DNA from: Flavihumibacter profundi
GTDB lineage: Bacteria; Bacteroidota; Bacteroidia; Chitinophagales; Chitinophagaceae
Direction: 5' to 3'
Length of the DNA stretch: 64,000 nt
Assembly: GCF_020076305.1 (NCBI RefSeq)
Contig: NZ_JAIQXE010000004.1
Span: 496,001-560,000 of the forward strand
Shown here: one piece after another, positions 42,903 to 55,764 of the stretch
Layout: every line of letters starts with the position of its first letter
How positions within the stretch are numbered: position 1 is the first letter of the stretch
Position numbers and translations under genes: made by a program
The notes under the pieces: generated by a model
The model's database searches: none
What the model was told of the DNA's origin: nothing
Seen by the model: the letters and a program-made list of their open reading frames with translations, nothing else

Positions 42903-44222
42903 ATGCCTGTTAGATCATTATATATTTTAGCATTCTTTTGGCTGTTGCTCCCCGCCCCTGAACTCATTGCCCAGGATTCAACTTTCCCACGCTGGACGCT
43001 TGTACAATGTATTCAATATGCAGAACAACATAATATCGCCTTAAACAATTTCCGCTTAATAAAACAATTAAAAGAACAGGACCAGGTACAGGCTAAAGCT
43101 GCTATAATCCCAGACCTCTATGGTGGCGCCTCATACGATTTTACGCATTATTCGCAAGCATCAAGCCTGTCTAAAACAACTGTAAATACAACCGGTTCGT
43201 GGGGACTAAGTTCAAAGGTTGTTTTATATAATGGCGGGATACTGAAAACAAATATCCGGCAAAGCGACCTTGATGTAAAAATAGCAGACCTTAATATCGC
43301 CCAGGAAAAAAATAGTTTATACCTGAACATTATTGAAGCCTACACCAATATCCTTTTGTCAAAGGAAACAATAAATTATGCAAAAGTCCAGTTGGAAAGC
43401 AGCCAGGTACAAAATGAACAGGCAAAGATTCAATACAATGCCGGGGCCATTGCCAGGAAACAATTAATTCAGCTTGAAGCACAACTGGCAAATGACGAAT
43501 TCACATTAACCAACGCACAAAATGCAGAAAGGTCAAACAAGGTTATCCTAAAACAATTATTACAAATACCGGTTACAGACAGTTTCGATATTTCAGATAA
43601 AACAGCAGAATTCGCGTTACAACTCATTCCCTCTTTAAACGAGGTCCTGGAATCTGCCATGAAATTCCGTCCGGAAATAAAAAGCAGCCAGTTAAACAGG
43701 GAGATGGCTGAGCTTGACCTGAAAATAGCCAAGGCAGGCTATTTACCATCTATTTCTGTTGGTGGAAAACTTTATACCGGGAACCAGAATATTGTCAACA
43801 AAAATATCCTTGCGCAACTAAATGATAATTTCTACCAAAACATTGGCATTTCGGCAAGCATTCCCATTTTCACAAAAAAAATCAATGCAACTAATGTTGC
43901 GAGGGCTAAGATCAGCATTACGCAAAGCGACTTAAACCAGTTGAACACAAAAACAATTTTATCGCAGGAAATTGAACAGGCATATATAACTACTAACAAT
44001 GCCTATGGAGAATACCTGGCGGCCAAAAAACAATTCGGGTATTATGAAGAAGCCTATAAAATTGCCTCGGAAGAACTACGCCTGGGTGCAACGAATATTA
44101 CGGAGTTTGTACAACAAAGGAACTTGTATACGCAGGCACTGCAAGCCTATGTGCAGGCAAAGTACAAAGCCATGCTGGCTTATAACGTATTAAACTTCTA
44201 TGCCGGCAAATTAAATAATTAG
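42903..44222 (+). CDS. TolC-family outer membrane channel
   Basis: A 439-residue protein with a signal peptide ending at ELIAQ. It shows two OEP repeats with long helical stretches (LKEQDQVQAKAAIIPDLYGGASYDF early, then a second half starting near AELDLKIAKAGYLPSISVGGKLY). The trimeric barrel and coiled-coil tunnel carry substrates across the outer membrane. It is the first gene of a four-gene exporter: the adaptor follows at 14 bp, then the ATPase and permease, giving a complete tripartite pump. Confidence 0.92.
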   Translation: MPVRSLYILAFFWLLLPAPELIAQDSTFPRWTLVQCIQYAEQHNIALNNFRLIKQLKEQDQVQAKAAIIPDLYGGASYDFTHYSQASSLSKTTVNTTGSWGLSSKVVLYNGGILKTNIRQSDLDVKIADLNIAQEKNSLYLNIIEAYTNILLSKETINYAKVQLESSQVQNEQAKIQYNAGAIARKQLIQLEAQLANDEFTLTNAQNAERSNKVILKQLLQIPVTDSFDISDKTAEFALQLIPSLNEVLESAMKFRPEIKSSQLNREMAELDLKIAKAGYLPSISVGGKLYTGNQNIVNKNILAQLNDNFYQNIGISASIPIFTKKINATNVARAKISITQSDLNQLNTKTILSQEIEQAYITTNNAYGEYLAAKKQFGYYEEAYKIASEELRLGATNITEFVQQRNLYTQALQAYVQAKYKAMLAYNVLNFYAGKLNN

Positions 44223-44236
44223 CTTATCCAGAGAAG

Positions 44237-45415
44237 ATGAAAAGAAAATATATTATAACCCTCGTATTTGTGCTCATCTTAATTGGTACTATTTCCGCAT
44301 ATTATATATTGAATAAAGGAAAAAATAACAACGCTTTTACTTTAAATACAGAACAGGTAAAAAAATCAGCAATAGCCAGTATTGTTACTTCCACCGGCAC
44401 AATAGTACCGGTTGATACAGTAGCGGTGGGCACGCAGATATCAGGGATGATTTCAAAAATACATACTGATTTTAATGCCAGGGTAAAAAAAGGCCAGCTA
44501 CTGGCGGAACTAGATCCAACAATTATGCAATCAACAGTAGAGCAGATAAAAGGTAACCTGGCACTGGCAGAAAGTAACCTTGCTTATCAAAAAATAAATT
44601 ACGAACGCCAGAAACAATTGTATGACGTGGGTTCAATAAGCAAAGCTAATTATGATGCAGCCATAAATGGCCTAAGTAATGCAGAAGCAGCTTTATCCAG
44701 TATAAAGGCACAATTAAAATCTGCTAATAAAAACCTGAGTTTCACGAAAATATATTCCCCAATTGATGGTGTTGTGTTGAACAGGAATATCAGCGTAGGG
44801 CAAACTGTAGCAGCCAGTTTCAATACGCCTACACTATTCAGCATTGCAAAGGACATCACAAAAATGCAGGCCCAGGCAAAAGTTGATGAAGCCGATATCG
44901 GGCAGGTCTCTAAAGGCAATAGGGTAACATTTACTGTTGATGCTTTTATAAACGACATTTTTCCTGGTACCGTTGCCGAAATAAGGTTACAGCCAACCAT
45001 TTCCGCAAATGTTGTAACCTATACCACCATTATTAATACAAACAATGATAGCCTTAAACTGAAGCCCGGCATGACAGCTACCATTACTATCTATACTGCC
45101 GAAGCAGAAGATGTACTAACAATTCCTTTACCGGCTCTAAAATTTAAACCCAGTCCCGAAATGATGGGCAAAGATTATACGATCGTTGCCTTTACAGGAG
45201 CCAGGAAAGCAACAGATAAATTTGTCTGGGTCCTGAAGGATAAAAACATTACCGAAAATAAAATCACAACGGGCATTAATGATAATACAAGGGTCCAGGT
45301 ATTAAGCGGAATAAAAGAAAATGACCTTGTGATAACCGGGGTTTCCAATGAAGCCAATAGCAAAGCAAATAGCGAATCAAAAAGCCCGTTCTTACCAACA
45401 ATGAGAAGACGATAA
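44237..45415 (+). CDS. macA: MacA-like periplasmic adaptor
   Basis: A 392-residue protein with an N-terminal membrane anchor (about residues 4-24). The lipoyl halves VGTQISGMISKIHTDFNARVKKGQLLAELDP and the second IYSPIDGVVLNRNISVGQTV flank a long coiled coil (residues 95-165). A beta-barrel domain (ANVVTYTTIINTNND, LKPGMTATITIYTAEAEDVL) closes it. The order and homology match MacA, which stimulates the MacB ATPase and seals to TolC. A start at 44237 is preceded by a GA-rich stretch. The ATPase starts 2 bp after the stop. Confidence 0.88.
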   Translation: MKRKYIITLVFVLILIGTISAYYILNKGKNNNAFTLNTEQVKKSAIASIVTSTGTIVPVDTVAVGTQISGMISKIHTDFNARVKKGQLLAELDPTIMQSTVEQIKGNLALAESNLAYQKINYERQKQLYDVGSISKANYDAAINGLSNAEAALSSIKAQLKSANKNLSFTKIYSPIDGVVLNRNISVGQTVAASFNTPTLFSIAKDITKMQAQAKVDEADIGQVSKGNRVTFTVDAFINDIFPGTVAEIRLQPTISANVVTYTTIINTNNDSLKLKPGMTATITIYTAEAEDVLTIPLPALKFKPSPEMMGKDYTIVAFTGARKATDKFVWVLKDKNITENKITTGINDNTRVQVLSGIKENDLVITGVSNEANSKANSESKSPFLPTMRRR

Positions 45416-45417
45416 CT

Positions 45418-46164
45418 ATGCCTGATATATTAAAAATGGAGAATATTAAAAGGGAGTTCATCCTGGGTCCACAGGTGGTAAAAGCATTGCGGGGGATAAG
45501 TTTCAGCGTTCAAACCGGTGAATTTGTAAGCATTATGGGGAGTAGTGGTTCCGGAAAATCAACCTTGCTGAACCTCATTGGGTGCCTGGACAAAGCCACG
45601 GAGGGAGATTATTTCCTGGATAGCACAAATGTGAAATCATTAGATAAAAATGAGTTGGCTGAATTACGGAATAAAAAAATCGGTTTTGTATTCCAGTCAT
45701 TCAACTTGCTGCCAAGGACAAGCGCTTTGGAAAATGTTGAATTGCCCTTATTGTACCAGAAAGGAATTTCCCGAAGTGAAAGGAAAGAAAGGGCAATGCA
45801 AGCCCTTGAAAAAGTGAAACTGGCAGACCGGTTTGAACATACGCCCAACCAGCTTTCGGGTGGACAGCAGCAGCGGGTTGCTATTGCAAGGGCACTGGTC
45901 AATGAGCCTGTACTTGTACTGGCTGATGAACCTACTGGTAACCTCGACACACGAACATCCTATGAGATCCTGAACCTGTTACAGGAACTGAACCGTGACC
46001 AGCAAAAAACAATTTTACTGGTAACACATGAACCAGACATTGCAACCTTCAGCAGCCGTACATTAATCCTGCGTGATGGAAAACTATTGCGAGATTTCCA
46101 GAATATTACAGTCCGTTCCGCAAAAGAAGCTTTGGCCGCTATACCTGTAAACGATGATTTTTAA
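45418..46164 (+). CDS. MacB-like ABC ATPase subunit
   Basis: A 248-residue ATPase with Walker [11 protein letters not shown]-loop FVFQSFNLL, signature [14 protein letters not shown], Walker [13 protein letters not shown] and H-loop VTHE. In E. coli MacB this domain is fused to the permease; here it is split from the permease at 46174. The C-terminal extension after residue 215 is short. It works with the flanking adaptor and permease to export an unknown substrate. Confidence 0.92.
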
Positions 46165-46173
46165 TCCATATAA

Positions 46174-47400
46174 ATGAATTTTTTCAACCTGTTACGAATC
46201 GCCTTAAAAGCCCTCAGGAGAAATAAGCTGAGAGCATTTCTGACTATGCTGGGCATAATAATCGGCGTTGGCGCTGTAATTACTATGATGGCCATTGGTT
46301 CAGGTTCAAAACAAAGCATTGAGGAAACCTTTTCCAGCATGGGTACCAACATGATTATAGTTAGGCCTTATAGTAATATCCCACTACCCGGTGGGGTGCG
46401 TATCGGATCATCCAATATACAATCGCTAACCCTGAAAGATGTAGATAAAATACGGGGCGAGGTTACAAATATCTCCGCACTGTCGCCGGGTATATCAAGC
46501 AGCGGGCAAGCCATCAGGGGTGCCAAAAACTGGCCTACCAATATGCAGGGCGCTTCGGTTGATTACCTGTCCATCCGGAAATTATCCGTTTCAATTGGCA
46601 CAAACTTTAATGAAGAGCATGAAAAATCATTTGCAAAAGTTTGTGTAATAGGGCAAACTGTAGTAAAGAACCTTTTTGAACCAGGAGAAAACCCGGTTGG
46701 CCAGATCATACGCTTTGGAAAGATCCCTTTCCAGGTTATTGGTGTTCTTACCGAAAAAGGACAAAATACTTTTGGGCAGGACCAGGATGATATCATCGTA
46801 GCGCCTTATACCACAATAATGAAACGGGTTAAAGCAAGCATTTACATACAGAATATTTTTGCCTCTGCAGAAAAAGAAGAACTATCCGAAGAGGCTACCA
46901 AAAATATCATTGCCGTTTTAAGAAGCAGCCACAAATTAAGAAAGGAGCAGGAAAATGATTTTGATGTAAGGACCCAGCAGGAATTAATCAGTACCATGAG
47001 TAAAACAAGCAATATGATGACCACATTACTGACTGCCGTTGCTGCCATTTCGCTGGTTATCGGAGGTATTGGTATTATGAATATTATGTACGTTTCTGTA
47101 ACGGAAAGAACCAGGGAAATCGGCCTCCGGATGTCGATCGGTGCCAAAAGCAGGGATATCTTATTGCAATTTTTAACAGAAGCCATTATCATCAGCATAA
47201 CGGGCGGCCTCATTGGCGTGCTGCTGGGCATTTCCGCAACTTATTTTATAGCCAATTTCCTTAAATGGCCAACAATTATCAACCAAAACGCAATGCTGGT
47301 CTCATTTTTGGTATGTGTACTTACAGGTGTTTTCTTCGGCTATTATCCAGCATTAAAAGCTTCTTCGCTAGATCCTATTGAAGCACTTCGATATGAATAA
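46174..47400 (+). CDS. MacB-like ABC permease
   Basis: A 408-residue FtsX-type permease: one N-terminal membrane segment (LRAFLTMLGIIIGVGAVITM), a periplasmic MacB-PCD domain (residues ~55-270) and three C-terminal membrane segments with the motif RTREIGLRMSIGAKSRDI and the end ASSLDPIEALRYE. These features closely match the permease half of MacB. It starts 9 bp after the ATPase stop and ends the pump operon, converging with the outer-membrane-like protein at 47415. Confidence 0.92.
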   Translation: MNFFNLLRIALKALRRNKLRAFLTMLGIIIGVGAVITMMAIGSGSKQSIEETFSSMGTNMIIVRPYSNIPLPGGVRIGSSNIQSLTLKDVDKIRGEVTNISALSPGISSSGQAIRGAKNWPTNMQGASVDYLSIRKLSVSIGTNFNEEHEKSFAKVCVIGQTVVKNLFEPGENPVGQIIRFGKIPFQVIGVLTEKGQNTFGQDQDDIIVAPYTTIMKRVKASIYIQNIFASAEKEELSEEATKNIIAVLRSSHKLRKEQENDFDVRTQQELISTMSKTSNMMTTLLTAVAAISLVIGGIGIMNIMYVSVTERTREIGLRMSIGAKSRDILLQFLTEAIIISITGGLIGVLLGISATYFIANFLKWPTIINQNAMLVSFLVCVLTGVFFGYYPALKASSLDPIEALRYE

Positions 47401-49597: not shown

Positions 49598-50917
49598 ATG
49601 AAAAGAGTAATCCTTTTGACCGGTTTCACAGTAGCCTGTTTCCTAGGATCGATCGCACAAAAAACACCCGGAGAAAAGCCAATATCAACAACGGGAAAAG
49701 ACGTCATCAAAGGCTTTATGGACAAACGTTTTGGTATGTTTATCCATTGGGGTCCTATCACGCTAAGGGGCACAGAGATCGGCTGGTCAAGGGGGCATGA
49801 AGTACCAGTGGAAGATTATGACAACCTGTACAAAGAATTTAACCCGGTTTTGTTTAATGCAGATACCTGGGTGAAAGCGGCCAAGGATGCAGGTATGAAA
49901 TATATCACTTTTACTTCCAAACATCACGATGGCTTCTGCATGTGGCCAAGTGCGTTTACACAATATGATATCCAATCCACACAATATAAAAAGGACATTG
50001 TTGGTGAAATTGCAAAGGCCTGCAAAAAACAAGGCATAGCATTCTGTCTCTATTTCACAATACTGGACTGGCATGATACCAATTATCCACTGCATAACCT
50101 GGGCGATAGTATTCCCGATCCTAAATCCAATATGGGAGCGTTCGTACAAACCATGAAAAATGAACTCACTGAACTGGTTACCAATTATCACCCTTACATG
50201 ATATGGTTTGATGGGAACTGGGAAGAACCATGGACAAAGTCTTACGGCCAGGAAATTTATACCCACCTGAAGAGACTCGATGCCAATTTGATTATCAATA
50301 ACCGTTTAGGCAAAGGTTCCCACAAAGTGATGAGTGCAGCATCTGTTGGCGATTACACCACGCCCGAACAGGAAATTGGAAATTTAAATATGGATACACC
50401 GTGGGAAAGCTGCATCACTATTTGCGACCAATGGGCCTGGAAACCCAACGATAAAATGAAGACATTGCAGGAATGCCTGCAGACATTGATAAAAACAGCA
50501 TCTGGAAATGGCAACCTGCTCCTGAATGTTGGCCCCATGCCCGATGGCAGGATGGAACAAAGGCAGGTAAACCAGTTGAAAAAAATTGGCGACTGGCTGA
50601 AAATATATGGTGAAAGCATATATGGAACAGCAGGGGGGCCTTATGCACCTAATGATAACTATAGCGCGACACGCAAAGACACCAGAGTATTCATCCATAT
50701 CTTCAATACCGCCAATAAGGAAATAGTATTGCCCGTACTCCCGGGTGTAAAACTGCTTAGTGCAAAATTAATGAACGGCCCGGCAGTAAAGGTGCAGGCA
50801 AAGGATGACAATTATTATTTCACCTTGCCAGCGCAACTACCCGACAATAACAGCAATGTGCTGGTATTGCAACTGGACAAGCAGGCAATAGATCTTCCTA
50901 TAATCGACTCCAAATAG
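49598..50917 (+). CDS. GH29 alpha-L-fucosidase, exported
   Basis: A 439-residue enzyme with a signal peptide ending near GSIAQ. The GH29 core is plain: KRFGMFIHWGPITLRGTE, ITFTSKHHDGFCMWPS, and the nucleophile Asp in MIWFDGNWEE. The acid/base Glu differs between GH29 subfamilies and I cannot fix it. The C-terminal ~85 residues form a beta-sandwich (IFNTANKEIVLPVLPG). It releases L-fucose from glycans in the periplasm or at the surface. The Gfo/Idh oxidoreductase begins 54 bp downstream, so it may be the first gene of a fucose operon. Confidence 0.93.
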   Translation: MKRVILLTGFTVACFLGSIAQKTPGEKPISTTGKDVIKGFMDKRFGMFIHWGPITLRGTEIGWSRGHEVPVEDYDNLYKEFNPVLFNADTWVKAAKDAGMKYITFTSKHHDGFCMWPSAFTQYDIQSTQYKKDIVGEIAKACKKQGIAFCLYFTILDWHDTNYPLHNLGDSIPDPKSNMGAFVQTMKNELTELVTNYHPYMIWFDGNWEEPWTKSYGQEIYTHLKRLDANLIINNRLGKGSHKVMSAASVGDYTTPEQEIGNLNMDTPWESCITICDQWAWKPNDKMKTLQECLQTLIKTASGNGNLLLNVGPMPDGRMEQRQVNQLKKIGDWLKIYGESIYGTAGGPYAPNDNYSATRKDTRVFIHIFNTANKEIVLPVLPGVKLLSAKLMNGPAVKVQAKDDNYYFTLPAQLPDNNSNVLVLQLDKQAIDLPIIDSK

Positions 50918-50971
50918 ATATATATATACTTGTTCTATTCGTTAATTTCAATATATTAAAATCATTCACTC

Positions 50972-52084
50972 ATGAACTCACGTCGTCAATTCCTGCAAAA
51001 ACTGACCGCATCCCTGATTACTGTGCCATTCCTGCCACTTGAAGACCTTTCGGCTCCGGCCGGACCAGATAATACACCGTACGCCGGACCAGTACTGCGG
51101 GTAGCCATCATGGGACTAGGCGGCTATGCAAACCGTGTTGCCGAAGCCATGCGCGCATGCAAGAAAGCCAAAATAGCAGGGGTTGTAAGCGGCACTCCGG
51201 CTAAAATCACCGATTGGCAAACCAGGTTCAGGATCCCGGACAAGAACTGTTACAACTACACGAATTTCGACAAGATGATCGATAACCCCGATATTGACGC
51301 TGTTTATGTGATCACCCCGAACGGGCTTCACCACGACCACGTGATCAGAGCAGCAAAGGCGGGCAAGCATGTGATCTGCGAAAAACCAATGGCTGTGAAT
51401 GCAAAAGAGGGACAGGAAATGGTGGATGCCTGTAAGAAAGCCAACGTACAATTGCTGGTAGGTTACCGTATGCATTTTGAACCCAAAACGCTTGAAATTA
51501 TCCGTATGCGCAATGCCGGCGAATTTGGCAAAGTACAATTTTTCCAGGGCCTCAGCGGATTTGTAATCGGCGATCCCACCCAATGGCGGCTTAACAAACA
51601 ACTCGCAGGCGGTGGTGCAATGATGGACATCGGCATATACTCGGTTAATGGCATGCGTTATATGCTGGGTGAAGAACCAATTTGGGTTACAGCAGAAGAA
51701 ACCAAAACCGACCCTGTCAAATTTGCTGTAGGTGTTGATGAAACCATCCAGTTCCAGGCAGGATTCCCCAGTGGTGCCATTGCTTCCTGCCTTAGCACGT
51801 ATAACATGAACTTCCTCGACAGGTTTTTCCTGACCGGTGAGAAAGGTTTTGCAGAATTGAATCCCGCCACTGGTTACGGCCCCATTCTTGGCCGCACCAA
51901 CAAGGGCGAACTGAGCTTCCTTCATGTGGCCCACCAGACCATTCAAATGGAGGAAATGTCAGACATCATCCTGAAAGGAAAACAACCAATCGTTCCCGTT
52001 AACGGTGAAGAAGCCGTGAAAGATTTAAAAATTATCGATGCGATTTATAAAGCAGCGAAAGAAGGTAAAAAAATACTGTTGTAA
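50972..52084 (+). CDS. Gfo/Idh/MocA-family oxidoreductase with Tat signal
   Basis: A 370-residue protein. The N-terminus SRRQFLQKLTASLITVPFLPL is a Tat-type signal, as in glucose-fructose oxidoreductase of Zymomonas. The Rossmann fold reads VAIMGLGGYANRVAEAM, the EKPMAVNAKEGQEMVDAC motif gives the catalytic Lys (CEKP), and the C-terminal domain follows (GGAMMDIGIYSVNGMRYMLGEEP). Such enzymes hold NAD(P) tightly and oxidise or exchange hydrogens on sugars in the periplasm. Substrate unknown; the adjacent GH29 favours fucose or a fucose-derived sugar. It converges with the enolase-superfamily gene, leaving 13 bp. Confidence 0.9.
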   Translation: MNSRRQFLQKLTASLITVPFLPLEDLSAPAGPDNTPYAGPVLRVAIMGLGGYANRVAEAMRACKKAKIAGVVSGTPAKITDWQTRFRIPDKNCYNYTNFDKMIDNPDIDAVYVITPNGLHHDHVIRAAKAGKHVICEKPMAVNAKEGQEMVDACKKANVQLLVGYRMHFEPKTLEIIRMRNAGEFGKVQFFQGLSGFVIGDPTQWRLNKQLAGGGAMMDIGIYSVNGMRYMLGEEPIWVTAEETKTDPVKFAVGVDETIQFQAGFPSGAIASCLSTYNMNFLDRFFLTGEKGFAELNPATGYGPILGRTNKGELSFLHVAHQTIQMEEMSDIILKGKQPIVPVNGEEAVKDLKIIDAIYKAAKEGKKILL

Positions 52085-52097
52085 TAAAAAACCAGGC

Positions 52098-53591
52098 TTA
52101 GCTCCATTCCCGGTCCCAGCTGTCAATTTTGTCCCACTCCTGGGTCGGGGCAAAATAAAGTTCCCCTTTTTTGAGGTGTTCTTTCACTACTTTCTCATTC
52201 AACTCTACACCCAGTCCCGGTTTGTCAGGCACTTTGGCAAAACCATTCTGGAAAATGGGCTTTTCCACGCCAGTAACCAGGTCTTCCCACCAGGGAATAT
52301 CAAAGGAATGGTGCTCGAGGGCTACAAAATTTTCCGTCGCAGCAGCGCAATGCAGGTTTGCCATGAAACAAACCGGACTTCCCGCGAAATGCATCGCCAT
52401 AGGCACCCCTCTTTCTTCTGCATAGTCCCCGATCTTTTTGGTCTCCAGTAATCCACCTGAAGTGGCAAGGTCTGGATGGATCATGTCTACCGCACGTGCA
52501 TCTATTAACTTAATAAAATCTTCTTTCAGGTAAATATCCTCCCCTGTTAAGGTTGGCGTTTCAATAGCATCTGATATCTGCTTCCATTGCTCCGTATAAC
52601 TCCAGGGCACCATGTCTTCCAGCCAGGCCAGCTGGTATTTTTCCAGCGCTTTGCCCAGGCGGATGGCCGTATTCACATCAAAATGGCCAAAATGATCTGC
52701 AGCCAATGGAATCTCATAACCCACGGCCTGCCGCACATTGGACACATATTCACTGATCATATCCAATCCTTTGTCTGTTATCTGGATTCTCGTAAAAGGG
52801 TGCCTCGTCTGGCTATAACTCCGGGCATTGCCTTTCTCCGGGGCACCATCGCCCCATTGCCGCTGGTAATCCCAGTTCTTCGAACCAATTACTGTACCCG
52901 GGGTCTTTGCCAGCAACTCAATACCGAAATCCATTTTTAAAAAAGTCAGCCCGAGTGCCTGCCTTTCCTGCATTTTTTTCGCATATTCAGCCGGGTTATC
53001 AACTTCCGGTGTGTCGCCATATATCCTGATTTGGTCCCTGAATTTCCCACCCAGCATCTGGTAACAGGGAACATTAAACGCTTTCCCTGCAAGGTCCCAT
53101 AGCGCCATTTCGACACCACATACACCGCCTGCTGCCCGGCCCGCGGCACCAAATTGCTTGATAGTCTTAAAAAGGTATTCCACATTGCAGGGGTTCTTCC
53201 CCAGTAAACGGCTCTTCAGGAATAATCCATATTTGGCACTGGCCCCATCGCGGATCTCACCATATCCTGAAATACCCTGATTGGTATCGATGCGAATAAT
53301 CGGGCATGTCATCGGCGCACCTGTAATTACAGCTACCCTCAGGTCGGTTATCTTCAGGTCCGACGGACTACCCCTGCGGTTTACTTTCTGGGTGATATAC
53401 TCAATTTCCTTAGCCGGATTATTGTTGAACATCATGCCCAGGCCTAAACCTCCCATGGAAACATTTTTAAGAAAATCACGGCGGTTACTGCCTTTCTTCT
53501 GGTCCTGGAACTGTAAGTCTGTGCCTGTTTTTGAAGAAGGCCCTTCAGGGATTCTTCCATTAAATTGAAACCTGTCAATTATATTTTTCAT
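52098..53591 (-). CDS. Enolase-superfamily dehydratase/isomerase (MR/MLE group) with Tat signal
   Basis: A 497-residue protein about 90-100 residues longer than a typical member because of an N-terminal leader of about 60 residues ending in a Tat motif (NRRDFLKNVSMGGLGLGMMF). The enolase fold contains the KMDFGIELL strand, metal-ligand candidates in AADHFGHFD, WLEDMVPW and LTGEDIYL, and a base His in MAMHFAGSP. These fit acid-sugar dehydratases. The loop HFGHF after the first Asp differs from the classic galactonate or fuconate motifs, so the substrate is unclear. It is followed after 33 bp by the RraA-like gene upstream on the same strand and both converge with the Gfo/Idh gene. Confidence 0.85.
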   Translation of the reverse strand: MKNIIDRFQFNGRIPEGPSSKTGTDLQFQDQKKGSNRRDFLKNVSMGGLGLGMMFNNNPAKEIEYITQKVNRRGSPSDLKITDLRVAVITGAPMTCPIIRIDTNQGISGYGEIRDGASAKYGLFLKSRLLGKNPCNVEYLFKTIKQFGAAGRAAGGVCGVEMALWDLAGKAFNVPCYQMLGGKFRDQIRIYGDTPEVDNPAEYAKKMQERQALGLTFLKMDFGIELLAKTPGTVIGSKNWDYQRQWGDGAPEKGNARSYSQTRHPFTRIQITDKGLDMISEYVSNVRQAVGYEIPLAADHFGHFDVNTAIRLGKALEKYQLAWLEDMVPWSYTEQWKQISDAIETPTLTGEDIYLKEDFIKLIDARAVDMIHPDLATSGGLLETKKIGDYAEERGVPMAMHFAGSPVCFMANLHCAAATENFVALEHHSFDIPWWEDLVTGVEKPIFQNGFAKVPDKPGLGVELNEKVVKEHLKKGELYFAPTQEWDKIDSWDREWS

Positions 53592-53624
53592 GGCGAATCG
53601 TTTATCAGTTTTTATAGGAATAAG

Positions 53625-54569
53625 TTACCAGGTGCGGTCTTTTAAAAACGCATCCAGCTCAGCTTTCGACATTGGCACTTTCGAAGGATTGTCCCTGATC
53701 CATTGCATAAAATCCTTCTTGATATCTTCTGTCCAGCCCTGGTCAATCTGGCCCGGCGTATACTTTCCTTCTTTTAACCGCTGGTGTGAAAAATCATCTT
53801 TCATCGCAATAAATTCCGCGGTGATAATAACTTTTTCCGCCAGGTAGGCTGGTATGAAAATCACTCCTTCTTTCTTTCCTAAAACCAGGTCACCGGGCAA
53901 TACGGTAGCACGGCCAATACGAATGGGATAGTTGATGCCTGTTAACATCACGTCTTTTATATAAGATGGATCAACCCCGCGCACAAAACCAACGAAGCCA
54001 TCAATTTCTTCCAGGCCTTCAAGGTCACGTACCCCTGCATCAAAAACAACACCCGTCTTAGACTTGGTATAAATTGAATTGCCCAGGTTATCTCCAATCA
54101 GGGTACCATCAATAATTTTAGAAAAGCCATCCGCCACATATACATCACCATTCTGCAACAAGTCAATCGGCCAGGAATTAGGGGCACCGGACCTGCCCTC
54201 CGATTTGCCTTTTGCCTTTATCGGATTATCAACATCAGGCCGTGTTGGCATATACTGCGCTGTCACTACCCTTCCAGCTAAAGGTTTTTCAGGATGGATA
54301 ACCTGCCAGCCGGCTTCAAACTGGTTATTAAACCCCTCATTACGCAATACCCCCCAGGCTTCTTCCATAGAAATATTAGCGAGCCGTTTAACCAAATCAT
54401 CTGACACTTTCGGACGTCCGTCGGGATAACGTTCCCCTTTCCATTGGGAAGAATATGTGAGGATTTGATCTTTGGTGGCCTGTATTTGCTGGCCACTACT
54501 TTGCAGGTAAAATGCTATACTGGCAATAATGCAAAGCATTAAAGGCAAGCCCGTTATTCGATTATTCAT
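53625..54569 (-). CDS. RraA-family protein (HMG/CHA aldolase-like) with signal peptide
   Basis: A 314-residue protein with a Sec signal (residues 1-27, ending SSGQQ). The RraA/HMG-aldolase core reads GDVYVADGFSKIIDGTLIGDNLGN followed by GVVFDAGVRDLEGLEEI, in which the catalytic Arg-Asp pair (VRD) of the retro-aldol type is intact. The metal-binding Asp and Gly-rich loop are kept as well. Family members cleave 4-hydroxy-4-methyl-2-oxoglutarate or decarboxylate oxaloacetate, while E. coli RraA lacks activity. Export is unusual for this family. It lies upstream of, and in the same direction as, the enolase-superfamily gene (33-bp gap). Confidence 0.85.
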   Translation of the reverse strand: MNNRITGLPLMLCIIASIAFYLQSSGQQIQATKDQILTYSSQWKGERYPDGRPKVSDDLVKRLANISMEEAWGVLRNEGFNNQFEAGWQVIHPEKPLAGRVVTAQYMPTRPDVDNPIKAKGKSEGRSGAPNSWPIDLLQNGDVYVADGFSKIIDGTLIGDNLGNSIYTKSKTGVVFDAGVRDLEGLEEIDGFVGFVRGVDPSYIKDVMLTGINYPIRIGRATVLPGDLVLGKKEGVIFIPAYLAEKVIITAEFIAMKDDFSHQRLKEGKYTPGQIDQGWTEDIKKDFMQWIRDNPSKVPMSKAELDAFLKDRTW

Positions 54570-54702
54570 AAAAGGTATTTTTTTCGGTCCGCTATTAAGA
54601 TAATCATTATTATTATTCAGCTGTCCTGCCGGAAAACTACTTTACGTATATTCAAATGATACAATTTTGCAGTTCAATTCTTACAGTATAAAATAAATAA
54701 AT

Positions 54703-55764
54703 ATGTCGCGACTGTTTTCACGCTTAATGATAAAAGATTTCCACCTGAAAAACCGCATTGCAATTTCACCTATGTGCCAGTATTCAGCTGAGGATGGTTT
54801 TGCCAATAACTGGCACCTGGTGCATTTGGGAAGCCGTGCAGTGGGTGGTGCCGGGCTAATTATCCAGGAAGCAACAGCAGTTTCACCGGAAGGACGTATC
54901 ACACCCGGTGACCTTGGCCTGTACCATGATGAACACATTGCACCATTGAAAAATATCACCAGTTTTATACACCAGCATGGTGCTATAGCAGGTATACAGT
55001 TGGCTCATGCCGGCCGGAAAGCTTCCTGTGCCAGGCCCTGGAAAGGCGGCCACCAATTGGATAAAACTGCTGGTGGCTGGACTACCATGGCACCTTCAGC
55101 TATCCCTTTTCATGAAAAGGACGATTCACCCAAGGCACTGGACCTTGCTGGCATACAGCAAGTGATCACCGATTTTACAAAAGCTGCAGAACGTTCCCTT
55201 GAAGCTGGATATAAGTTGGTGGAAATTCACGCCGCACATGGCTACCTGATCAATGAATTCCTGTCACCTTTAACCAACCACCGGACAGATGATTACGGTG
55301 GCAACTTTGATAACCGGACCCGGTTGTTGCGCGAAATCATTCAATCGGTTAAAAAAGTCTGGCCTGAAAATAATCCTTTATTTGTACGCTTATCGTGTAT
55401 CGATTGGGCCGAAGGCGGCTGGACTATTGAAGATTCTGTCCAACTGGCAGAAATACTAAAAAATATCGGCGTCGACCTTATCGATTGTTCTTCCGGAGGA
55501 TTGGTATCGCATGCAAAAATTCATGCCAGTCCGGGTTACCAGGTGACTTTCGCAGAAAGGATTAAACAGGAAACGGGCATCCTCACAGGAGCTGTTGGAT
55601 TGATCACTGAGGCTGAACAAGCAGAAGAAATTATAAGAAATGACCAGGCCGACCTGGTATTGATCGCACGGGCTTCCCTGCGTGACCCAAACTTTCCTTT
55701 GCATGCTGCAAAGGAACTGGGTTTTGACATAGACTGGCCTGCGCAATACCTCCGGGCGAAATAA
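54703..55764 (+). CDS. NADH:flavin oxidoreductase of the YqjM/old yellow enzyme type
   Basis: A 353-residue FMN-dependent TIM-barrel enzyme without a signal peptide. It shows ISPMCQYSAEDGFANNWHLVH, with the thermophilic-like OYE Cys (PMCQYS), the AGRKASCARPWKGG motif, and the substrate His pair in EIHAAHGYLINEFLSP. The C-terminal ADLVLIARASLRDPNFPLHAA segment binds the FMN phosphate. It reduces activated alkenes such as enones and may serve in redox defence. The gene is divergent from the RraA-like gene. Confidence 0.93.
   Translation: MSRLFSRLMIKDFHLKNRIAISPMCQYSAEDGFANNWHLVHLGSRAVGGAGLIIQEATAVSPEGRITPGDLGLYHDEHIAPLKNITSFIHQHGAIAGIQLAHAGRKASCARPWKGGHQLDKTAGGWTTMAPSAIPFHEKDDSPKALDLAGIQQVITDFTKAAERSLEAGYKLVEIHAAHGYLINEFLSPLTNHRTDDYGGNFDNRTRLLREIIQSVKKVWPENNPLFVRLSCIDWAEGGWTIEDSVQLAEILKNIGVDLIDCSSGGLVSHAKIHASPGYQVTFAERIKQETGILTGAVGLITEAEQAEEIIRNDQADLVLIARASLRDPNFPLHAAKELGFDIDWPAQYLRAK

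Follow-up and report, generated by a model that had tools for sequence, protein, structure and literature searches.

The window considered here, a stretch of 64,000 nucleotides from Flavihumibacter profundi (assembly GCF_020076305.1, contig NZ_JAIQXE010000004.1, positions 496,001 to 560,000 of the forward strand), encodes an RraA-family protein next to an enolase-superfamily protein of the MR/MLE family, both bearing N-terminal export signals. This pair is the conserved part of a four-gene locus whose other members are a GH29 alpha-L-fucosidase family protein and a Gfo/Idh oxidoreductase, and it is more general than the first-pass annotation, which proposed a single exported fucose pathway, had thought. 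We consider it somewhat probable that RraA and MR/MLE constitute an exported, two-enzyme module of sugar-acid catabolism acting outside the cytoplasm; the periplasmic site, both reactions, the order of steps and the import of products are inferred from sequence. Such a pairing is unexpected, since sugar-acid cleavage is a chemistry known from inside cells.

In the proposed mechanism, the MR/MLE protein would fold in the cytoplasm, leave by the twin-arginine (Tat) route and, once in the periplasm, dehydrate an aldonic-type sugar acid (or rearrange an equivalent substrate) to a 2-keto-3-deoxy acid. RraA, exported through Sec, would cleave this acid by a metal-dependent retro-aldol reaction into pyruvate and an aldehyde. 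Both products would then be imported, in many relatives by an adjoining BASS-type symporter. Environmental sources could supply the sugar acids, as could the oxidation of sugars by exported enzymes; at this locus, a candidate for the latter is the neighboring Gfo/Idh protein, which resembles aldose-aldose oxidoreductase (AAOR) and would hold bound NADP.

Conservation of the exported pair

The neighborhood of exported RraA was surveyed in 79 loci belonging to three sets: the window and its relatives (15 loci), an even sample of Bacteroidota (31), and a genome-contig collection (33) spanning Bacteroidota, Acidobacteriota, Planctomycetota, one Caldithrix metagenome-assembled genome (MAG) and one Opitutales MAG. 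Another 33 loci of other RraA-family proteins served as controls, and for each locus, genes lying up to 5 kb from its best RraA were counted as neighbors. In the first set, RraA has a partner in all 15 loci: a Tat-type MR/MLE in 6 and a DgaE-like lyase in 9. In the even sample, a Tat-type MR/MLE is present in 24/31 loci, rising to 27/31 when three with the lyase are added, as opposed to 0/33 controls (Fisher 3.7e-14). The exceptions are L124, which has only an AAOR-type Gfo/Idh, L137, a 4.6 kb contig with only a BASS gene, L140 and L150. Partners occur in 24/33 loci of the contig set by script, and in 25/33 once the type-A MR/MLE of L062, complete with its motif but initially masked by an over-long antisense frame, is restored. 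Two further loci of that set have an MR/MLE lacking a called N-terminal motif (L059) and a UxuA-like gene cut by the contig end (L061), while L065, L071, L073, L075, L076 and L078 have no partner within 5 kb. At the genome level, the MR/MLE type of the window, hereafter type A, is found in 15 of 395 Bacteroidota genomes (E up to 1e-60), and all 15 carry exported RraA, against a background of 24/395. The RraA genes of G443 are on a different contig from its type-A MR/MLE, which lies with a BASS gene (L187). Thus, both expectations of the first-pass annotation, a conserved neighborhood in relatives and co-occurrence of exported MR/MLE and RraA in other Bacteroidota, held.

Export signals and the predicted aldolase

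Export signals had been claimed for all four enzymes, and the motif rule and inspection by eye agree. The N-termini of Gfo/Idh and MR/MLE are of the twin-arginine type, those of GH29 and RraA contain hydrophobic Sec-type segments, and the F. profundi genome encodes TatC. The twin-arginine motif of MR/MLE is not a product of chance, because it occurs in 42/44 type-A proteins as opposed to 45/1088 other called open reading frames (ORFs) of at least 200 amino acids; the two arginine columns are at least 90% conserved in the MR/MLE alignment. The h-region rule was passed by RraA in 14/15 loci of the window and relatives, 28/33 of the contig set and 28/31 of the even sample, but is a loose one, as 16/33 control RraA pass it too.

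The AlphaFold model of the window RraA (pLDDT 91.7) matches RraAS2 (5x15), 3k4i and the HMG/CHA aldolase 3noj in Foldseek searches. The metal of 3NOJ is bound by Asp124 and Glu199, and its Arg123 stabilizes the pyruvate enolate (PMC5065237). Arg181, Asp182 and Asp258 of the window RraA align with Arg123, Asp124 and Glu199 and are conserved in 85/85, 84/85 and 84/85 exported RraA, respectively, which upholds the earlier statement that the protein keeps the Arg-Asp pair needed for aldolase activity. With the domain, this pair and the second acidic ligand position all present, the protein appears to belong to the RraA/HMG-CHA type of the class II aldolase superfamily, and is predicted to be a pyruvate-releasing aldolase. 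Its score against the 4-carboxy-4-hydroxy-2-oxoadipate aldolase equivalog TIGR02798 is 57.5 bits, below the cut-off of 304.5. In a quick phylogeny of 85 RraA sequences, subfamilies track the type of partner: five partner labels require 18 changes compared with a shuffled mean of 46.3, a difference to which near-copies and taxonomy contribute (labels for L048, L055 and L128 were assigned by hand from partial MR/MLE sequences). L046 and L134 harbor tandem exported RraA paralogues, one of which groups with mostly lyase-linked and the other with MR/MLE-linked RraA.

The MR/MLE partner and other partners of RraA

The nearest solved relative of the MR/MLE protein is 2qq6, which scores 345 bits against the profile (among the best 60 of 186 PDB matches; Foldseek E 3.5e-34) and is titled only as an MR/MLE-like protein. 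The structure model has a mean pLDDT of 80. The protein is nearest the galactonate/mannonate dehydratase group, and its best structure matches are putative dehydratases. Its score against the galactonate dehydratase model NF010624, 197 bits, lies below the cut-off of 311. Asp299, Glu325, Glu351, Asp374, His401, Lys219 and Asp221 are kept in 44/44 type-A proteins. We take the acidic Asp299, Glu325 and Glu351 to be the metal ligands and His401 and Asp374 to form the His/Asp dyad. A second type, B, retains a canonical D-M-H-G-R stretch. Both types occur in the same locus in L053, L074, L060 and L128 (the last from partial sequence), and type A is the sole MR/MLE beside RraA in many loci. L053 and L074, from Flammeovirgaceae MAGs, resemble polysaccharide utilization loci (PULs), with SusC-SusD, RraA, a type-B MR/MLE, a further RraA, two to three type-A MR/MLE, BASS and an AGE-type epimerase.

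Two other protein families also occur as partners of RraA. A Tat-type UxuA-like protein partners RraA mostly in Acidobacteria; two that were tested match PF03786 at 131 and 152 bits, and that of L058 scores 107 bits against the NCBIfam mannonate dehydratase, below the cut-off of 191. In relatives of F. profundi, RraA also adjoins a Tat-type, pyridoxal phosphate (PLP)-dependent protein of the DgaE family. An exported amidohydrolase, at 451 bits to PRK09237 (cut-off 371), accompanies it, and a Tat-type RidA joins in 6/15 loci of the window and relatives. Known members of the MR/MLE, UxuA and DgaE families make 2-keto-3-deoxy acids. Three unrelated families tied to such acids therefore converge on one exported RraA that keeps pyruvate-aldolase residues. 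The amidohydrolase, PLP-enzyme and RidA kinds are likewise linked to 2-keto-3-deoxy acid formation by the ong pathway, in which OngB and OngC turn N-acetylglucosaminate (GlcNAc1A) into 2-keto-3-deoxygluconate (KDG) and ongD is needed for growth (PMC9537276).

The F. profundi genome itself has a second cluster of this kind, L034 (C4:268000-287000), comprising three exported amidohydrolases, a Tat-type DgaE-like PLP protein, a GSDH-cytochrome, an SMP-30 lactonase, RraA and BASS. Its RraA is 56% identical to that of the window, and its DgaE-like protein scores 183 bits against the ammonia lyase model TIGR01437 (cut-off 385). This cluster is a candidate periplasmic route for N-acetyl-glucosaminate-type acids. 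Transport genes recur more widely: a BASS-type symporter gene lies within 5 kb of exported RraA in 16/31 even-sample loci. The BASS protein exceeds the Pfam SBF cut-off, and its nearest NCBIfam model is PanS (258 bits, cut-off 400).

Weighing the two-enzyme module

Several findings weigh against an exported RraA–MR/MLE module. By rule, a partner (Tat-type MR/MLE, UxuA-like or DgaE-like) is missing in 8/33 loci of the contig set and 4/31 of the even sample, while the controls include a UxuA-like gene in 4/33 and an MR/MLE in 1/33, albeit without the motif. The Fisher value for genomic co-occurrence, 2.5e-21, is uncorrected for phylogeny. The export assignments rest on simple motif and hydropathy rules. 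No BASS or SusC/D gene lies within positions 40-62 kb of the window; the adjacent SusC/SusD pair that marks a PUL is therefore missing from that region, and is present in L053, L074, L131, L142 and L145. At RraA position 160, where 3NOJ has Asp, 56 of 85 proteins have Asp as well, 25 have Ser and 4 another residue. Lastly, the His two residues after the first ligand (D-x-H), catalytic in the galactonate/mannonate dehydratase group (GalD/ManD), is replaced in 44/44 type-A MR/MLE (Phe 12, Trp 12, Leu 10, Tyr 5, Thr 5).

This last substitution means that the type-A active site is changed, and dehydration is not assured because the His of the related aldonate dehydratases is absent. Taken together, the dehydratase ligands, whose absence the first-pass annotation had named as refuting its reading, give a split result: Asp299, Glu325, Glu351 and the His/Asp dyad stand in 44/44, the D-x-H His in 0/44. 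His300 (44/44) and His303 (42/44), as well as His428, are candidate substitutes for the lost residue. Type-A MR/MLE may be an unusual dehydratase employing another acid, or a cycloisomerase. The latter underlies a rival reading: type A would isomerize anhydro-sugar acids or lactones, as a cycloisomerase or an epimerase, and supply RraA by a different route, and type B, with its D-M-H-G-R stretch, would be the dehydratase. Besides the uniform loss of the His, a Foldseek match at rank 31 (TMt 0.89) to 5olc, a 3,6-anhydro-D-galactonate cycloisomerase, and the joint presence of both types in four loci argue for this division of labor. On the other hand, type A is often without a type-B companion, and its best matches are putative dehydratases; we regard the rival as unlikely. 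Either activity could still yield a 2-keto-3-deoxy acid, and as a cycloisomerase would do so too, the two-enzyme module survives this alternative.

The Gfo/Idh protein and the fucose pathway

The best PDB matches of the window Gfo/Idh are the Caulobacter AAOR (5a02, 301 bits) and the Zymomonas glucose-fructose oxidoreductase (GFOR, 234-237 bits), the next match scoring 96 bits. The suggestion of a GFOR-like enzyme at this locus is thereby substantiated, with 301 bits to AAOR and 237 to GFOR. AAOR is described as having a Tat signal and tightly bound NADP and as converting aldoses to aldonolactones (PMC4628093, PMC9795676), and its physiological function is called unclear by its authors (PMC4628093). 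The window protein, with its Tat motif, has AAOR and GFOR as its closest sequence relatives, and bound NADP and aldose oxidation are predicted for it. This kinship fits the bound-cofactor idea of the first-pass annotation.

That annotation had the four enzymes work as one periplasmic L-fucose pathway: GH29 would free fucose, Gfo/Idh would oxidize it to fuconolactone, MR/MLE would dehydrate fuconate and RraA would cleave the product. GH29 and Gfo/Idh do share a strand with a gap of 54 bp, and the closest Gfo relative oxidizes aldoses. In a second phylum, at the Acidobacteriaceae MAG locus L060, a Tat-motif GH29 scoring 239 bits with Pfam precedes by about 1 kb a type-B MR/MLE, RraA, a type-A MR/MLE, another RraA and an MFS transporter. 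An oxidative fucose route is conceivable because the 100% complete F. profundi genome has 10 GH29 matches and no match to a fucose isomerase C-domain or FucU/RbsD. Yet GH29 lies near the module in just 2/79 loci (the window and, Pfam-confirmed, L060) and in 0/33 controls, and nine further GH29 lie elsewhere in the genome, which means that linkage to one of them can be chance. Close Gfo orthologues are mostly away from RraA: of 11 places with a Gfo of at least 57% identity, two adjoin RraA and nine (L178-L186) have neither RraA nor MR/MLE beside them. The MR/MLE protein is nearest the galactonate/mannonate group. Its profile gave 186 PDB matches, of which the best 60 include none labeled fuconate dehydratase. 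F. profundi also encodes a clear galactonate dehydratase, at 657 bits (cut-off 311), that lacks an export motif. Across the 79 loci, fucosidase, dehydrogenase, dehydratase and aldolase occur together only at the window. The single fucose pathway thus has the genome's 10 GH29 and the missing isomerase and FucU/RbsD matches mildly in its favor, lacks the expected linkage, and is unlikely.

AAOR as a fixed part of the module was likewise considered and rejected. An AAOR-like Gfo is encoded in 54/395 genomes, 18 of them among the 24 that carry exported RraA; the L178-L186 loci, by comparison, lack MR/MLE, RraA and GH29 beside it. Near RraA, the AAOR type was found only at the window, L035, L124 (where there is no MR/MLE) and L147 (about 5 kb off). 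Rejected as well was AAOR linkage in L049-L052, from Eudoraea and kin, whose Gfo proteins reach 38-43 bits against the AAOR-type profile; that of L049 is nearest the BT_2158 type (119 bits, cut-off 750). In these four genomes, RraA-MR/MLE converge with a PIG-L deacetylase and a Tat-type Gfo in a conserved order.

A final alternative is that co-regulation alone unites the genes, the enzymes having unrelated roles or using keto-glycosides as substrates, with RraA perhaps decarboxylating a keto acid rather than cleaving it. It draws on the BT_2158-type glycoside 3-dehydrogenases among Gfo/Idh relatives (39 bits here, cut-off 750) and on related RraA-family models named aldolase/oxaloacetate decarboxylase. 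It is very unlikely given the 301 bits to AAOR and a pairing that recurs, with alternative partners, in Bacteroidota, Acidobacteriota and Planctomycetota as well as in a Caldithrix MAG, which co-regulation alone would hardly produce.

Layout of the locus

The first-pass annotation placed the four enzymes within 5 kb, which stands, all four ORFs being complete and above the Pfam cut-offs (Table 1); they form two convergent units, not one operon. The GH29–Gfo/Idh unit on the plus strand runs toward the RraA–MR/MLE unit on the minus strand, in which RraA is upstream and separated from MR/MLE by 33 bp, and 13 bp lie between the two stops.

Table 1. Features of the exported-enzyme locus in window coordinates
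Feature	Position	Strand	Basis
GH29 alpha-L-fucosidase family protein	49598-50917	+	ORF; Pfam Alpha_L_fucos 287 bits, above cut-off
GH29 Sec-type signal	about 49598-49660	+	N-terminal sequence
Gfo/Idh protein, Tat-type	50972-52084	+	ORF; Pfam GFO_IDH_MocA 108 bits, above cut-off
Gfo/Idh twin-arginine signal region, SRRQFLQK (N-terminus MNSRRQFLQK)	50972-51055	+	Sequence
MR/MLE (enolase superfamily) protein, Tat-type, type A	52098-53591	-	ORF; Pfam MR_MLE_C 170 bits, above cut-off
MR/MLE twin-arginine signal region NRRDFLKNVSMGGLGLGMMF (NRRDFLK), after a 35-residue n-region	53424-53486	-	Sequence
MR/MLE residues 299-303, DHFGH: Asp299 kept, usual D-x-H His replaced by Phe	52683-52697	-	Alignment
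RraA-family protein, exported, predicted class II pyruvate aldolase	53625-54569	-	PF03737 RraA-like 61.6 bits, cut-off 24.5
RraA Sec-type signal	54489-54569	-	Sequence; model helix 7-23
RraA Arg181-Asp182 codons (equivalent of 3NOJ HMG/CHA aldolase Arg123-Asp124)	54024-54029	-	Alignment
Intergenic region upstream of RraA, between RraA and the divergent NamA-type OYE gene	54570-54702		ORF map

Beyond this region, positions 54703-55764 encode a NamA-type NADPH dehydrogenase (443 bits, cut-off 431), divergent from RraA in both the window and L035. Positions 42903-47400 encode a TolC-like protein, a membrane-fusion protein, an ABC ATPase and a permease, a MacAB-TolC-type set by eye.

Loci, searches and counting rules

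Among 59 relatives searched, 16 had an RraA match of any kind; among the 395 genomes of the even Bacteroidota sample, 42 did, of which 24 at E<1e-60 represent the exported subfamily. The division between exported subfamily and controls was set by eye at the E-value gap from 2.7e-66 to 3.1e-16. The 31 even-sample loci come from 22 genomes, those of G000 and G009 being assigned to the window and relatives. The controls were drawn from the searches of the relatives and of the 395 genomes; a stop-bearing fragment (G258:C50) was left out, G018 was counted once and two G195 matches were treated as one locus. The split-gene fragments of G249 and of G104, an even-sample genome whose RraA gene is split, fall outside the gap rule, and their loci were counted once. 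Split genes were also seen in L152 (RraA) and L042 (amidohydrolase), and L143 has an extra RraA fragment. Genes were called by our own ORF rules and labeled with profile hidden Markov models built from the sequences of the analysis. The GH29 profile, run over 117 loci, comprised ten sequences, the window GH29 being included twice (also as L196), and the PQQ dehydrogenase profile was built from two. Export calls combined a twin-arginine motif rule, a hydropathy rule and reading of N-termini by eye.

Significance and comparison with known systems

A broader proposal, which we advance tentatively and place somewhat short of probable, is that bacteria of several phyla carry out a non-phosphorylative route for sugar acids, from start to finish, outside the cytoplasmic membrane. 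It would consist of exported oxidation (AAOR/GFOR-like, PQQ- or GSDH-cytochrome-type), a lactonase, interchangeable formers of 2-keto-3-deoxy acids (type A or B MR/MLE, UxuA-like, or amidohydrolase with DgaE-like lyase and RidA) and a dedicated exported RraA, with pyruvate rather than sugar crossing the inner membrane. An exported sugar dehydrogenase of the AAOR, GSDH-cytochrome or PQQ type lies within 8 kb in 7/31 loci of the even sample, 5/15 of the window and relatives and 0/33 of the contig set, compared with 1/33 controls. In L131, L135 and L140, the proteins of PQQ type score 520-666 bits with Pfam PQQ, have a cytochrome domain and fall below the NCBIfam cut-off. L131 is the fullest oxidative version, with a PQQ dehydrogenase-cytochrome, SMP-30, two type-A MR/MLE, BASS, RraA, two UxuA-like genes and SusD/SusC.

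If the two-enzyme module is real, the periplasm would be the site of C-C cleavage of sugar acids, and pyruvate would be imported in their place. This would assign a function to the exported RraA subfamily, which occurs in several phyla, and to the Tat-type proteins of the MR/MLE and UxuA-like kinds; AAOR might gain one too, and the aldonic acids left after oxidative polysaccharide breakdown would acquire a testable fate. For lytic polysaccharide monooxygenases as the substrate source, the F. profundi genome gave no AA10 match. Searches of an open-access library turned up no paper on an exported MR/MLE–RraA pair by title or start of abstract, although one may exist.

The inferred order of steps, namely aldose oxidation, lactone opening, dehydration and cleavage of a keto-deoxy acid, is that of the non-phosphorylative Weimberg/Dahms and Entner-Doudoroff types. 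Archaeal pathways of this class use enolase-superfamily dehydratases, according to a review of non-phosphorylative oxidative pathways, in which the word periplasm is absent (PMC9795676). What differs here is that the dehydratase-like enzyme and the aldolase have export signals, and that the aldolase is of the RraA family. With the D-galactonate and D-mannonate dehydratases, type-A MR/MLE has in common the fold, the three acidic residues taken to be ligands and the His/Asp dyad, but it has D-H-[FWLYT] for D-x-H, a Tat motif and a score below the NCBIfam cut-off. Similarly, the window RraA shares with the Pseudomonas HMG/CHA aldolase 3NOJ the fold (Foldseek E 2.4e-13), the Arg and two acidic metal-ligand positions, but is 22% identical, exported, about 75 residues longer and in other genomic company. 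The window Gfo/Idh has the Tat signal and the aligned C-E-K-P and D-I-G-I-Y stretches of Caulobacter AAOR and Zymomonas GFOR, and unlike them sits beside a dehydratase-aldolase pair. Finally, the amidohydrolase, PLP deaminase and RidA kinds of the Pseudoalteromonas ong pathway recur beside exported RraA in L039-L045; in that pathway, OngB, OngC and KdgK are placed in the cytoplasm, whereas the proteins here carry signals and add RraA (PMC9537276). OngB is of a D-aminoacylase-like subtype (PMC12017989), while the amidohydrolases here match PRK09237. If the broader proposal is correct, the lyase version of the module would be a periplasmic counterpart of the GlcNAc1A route for oxidized chitin.

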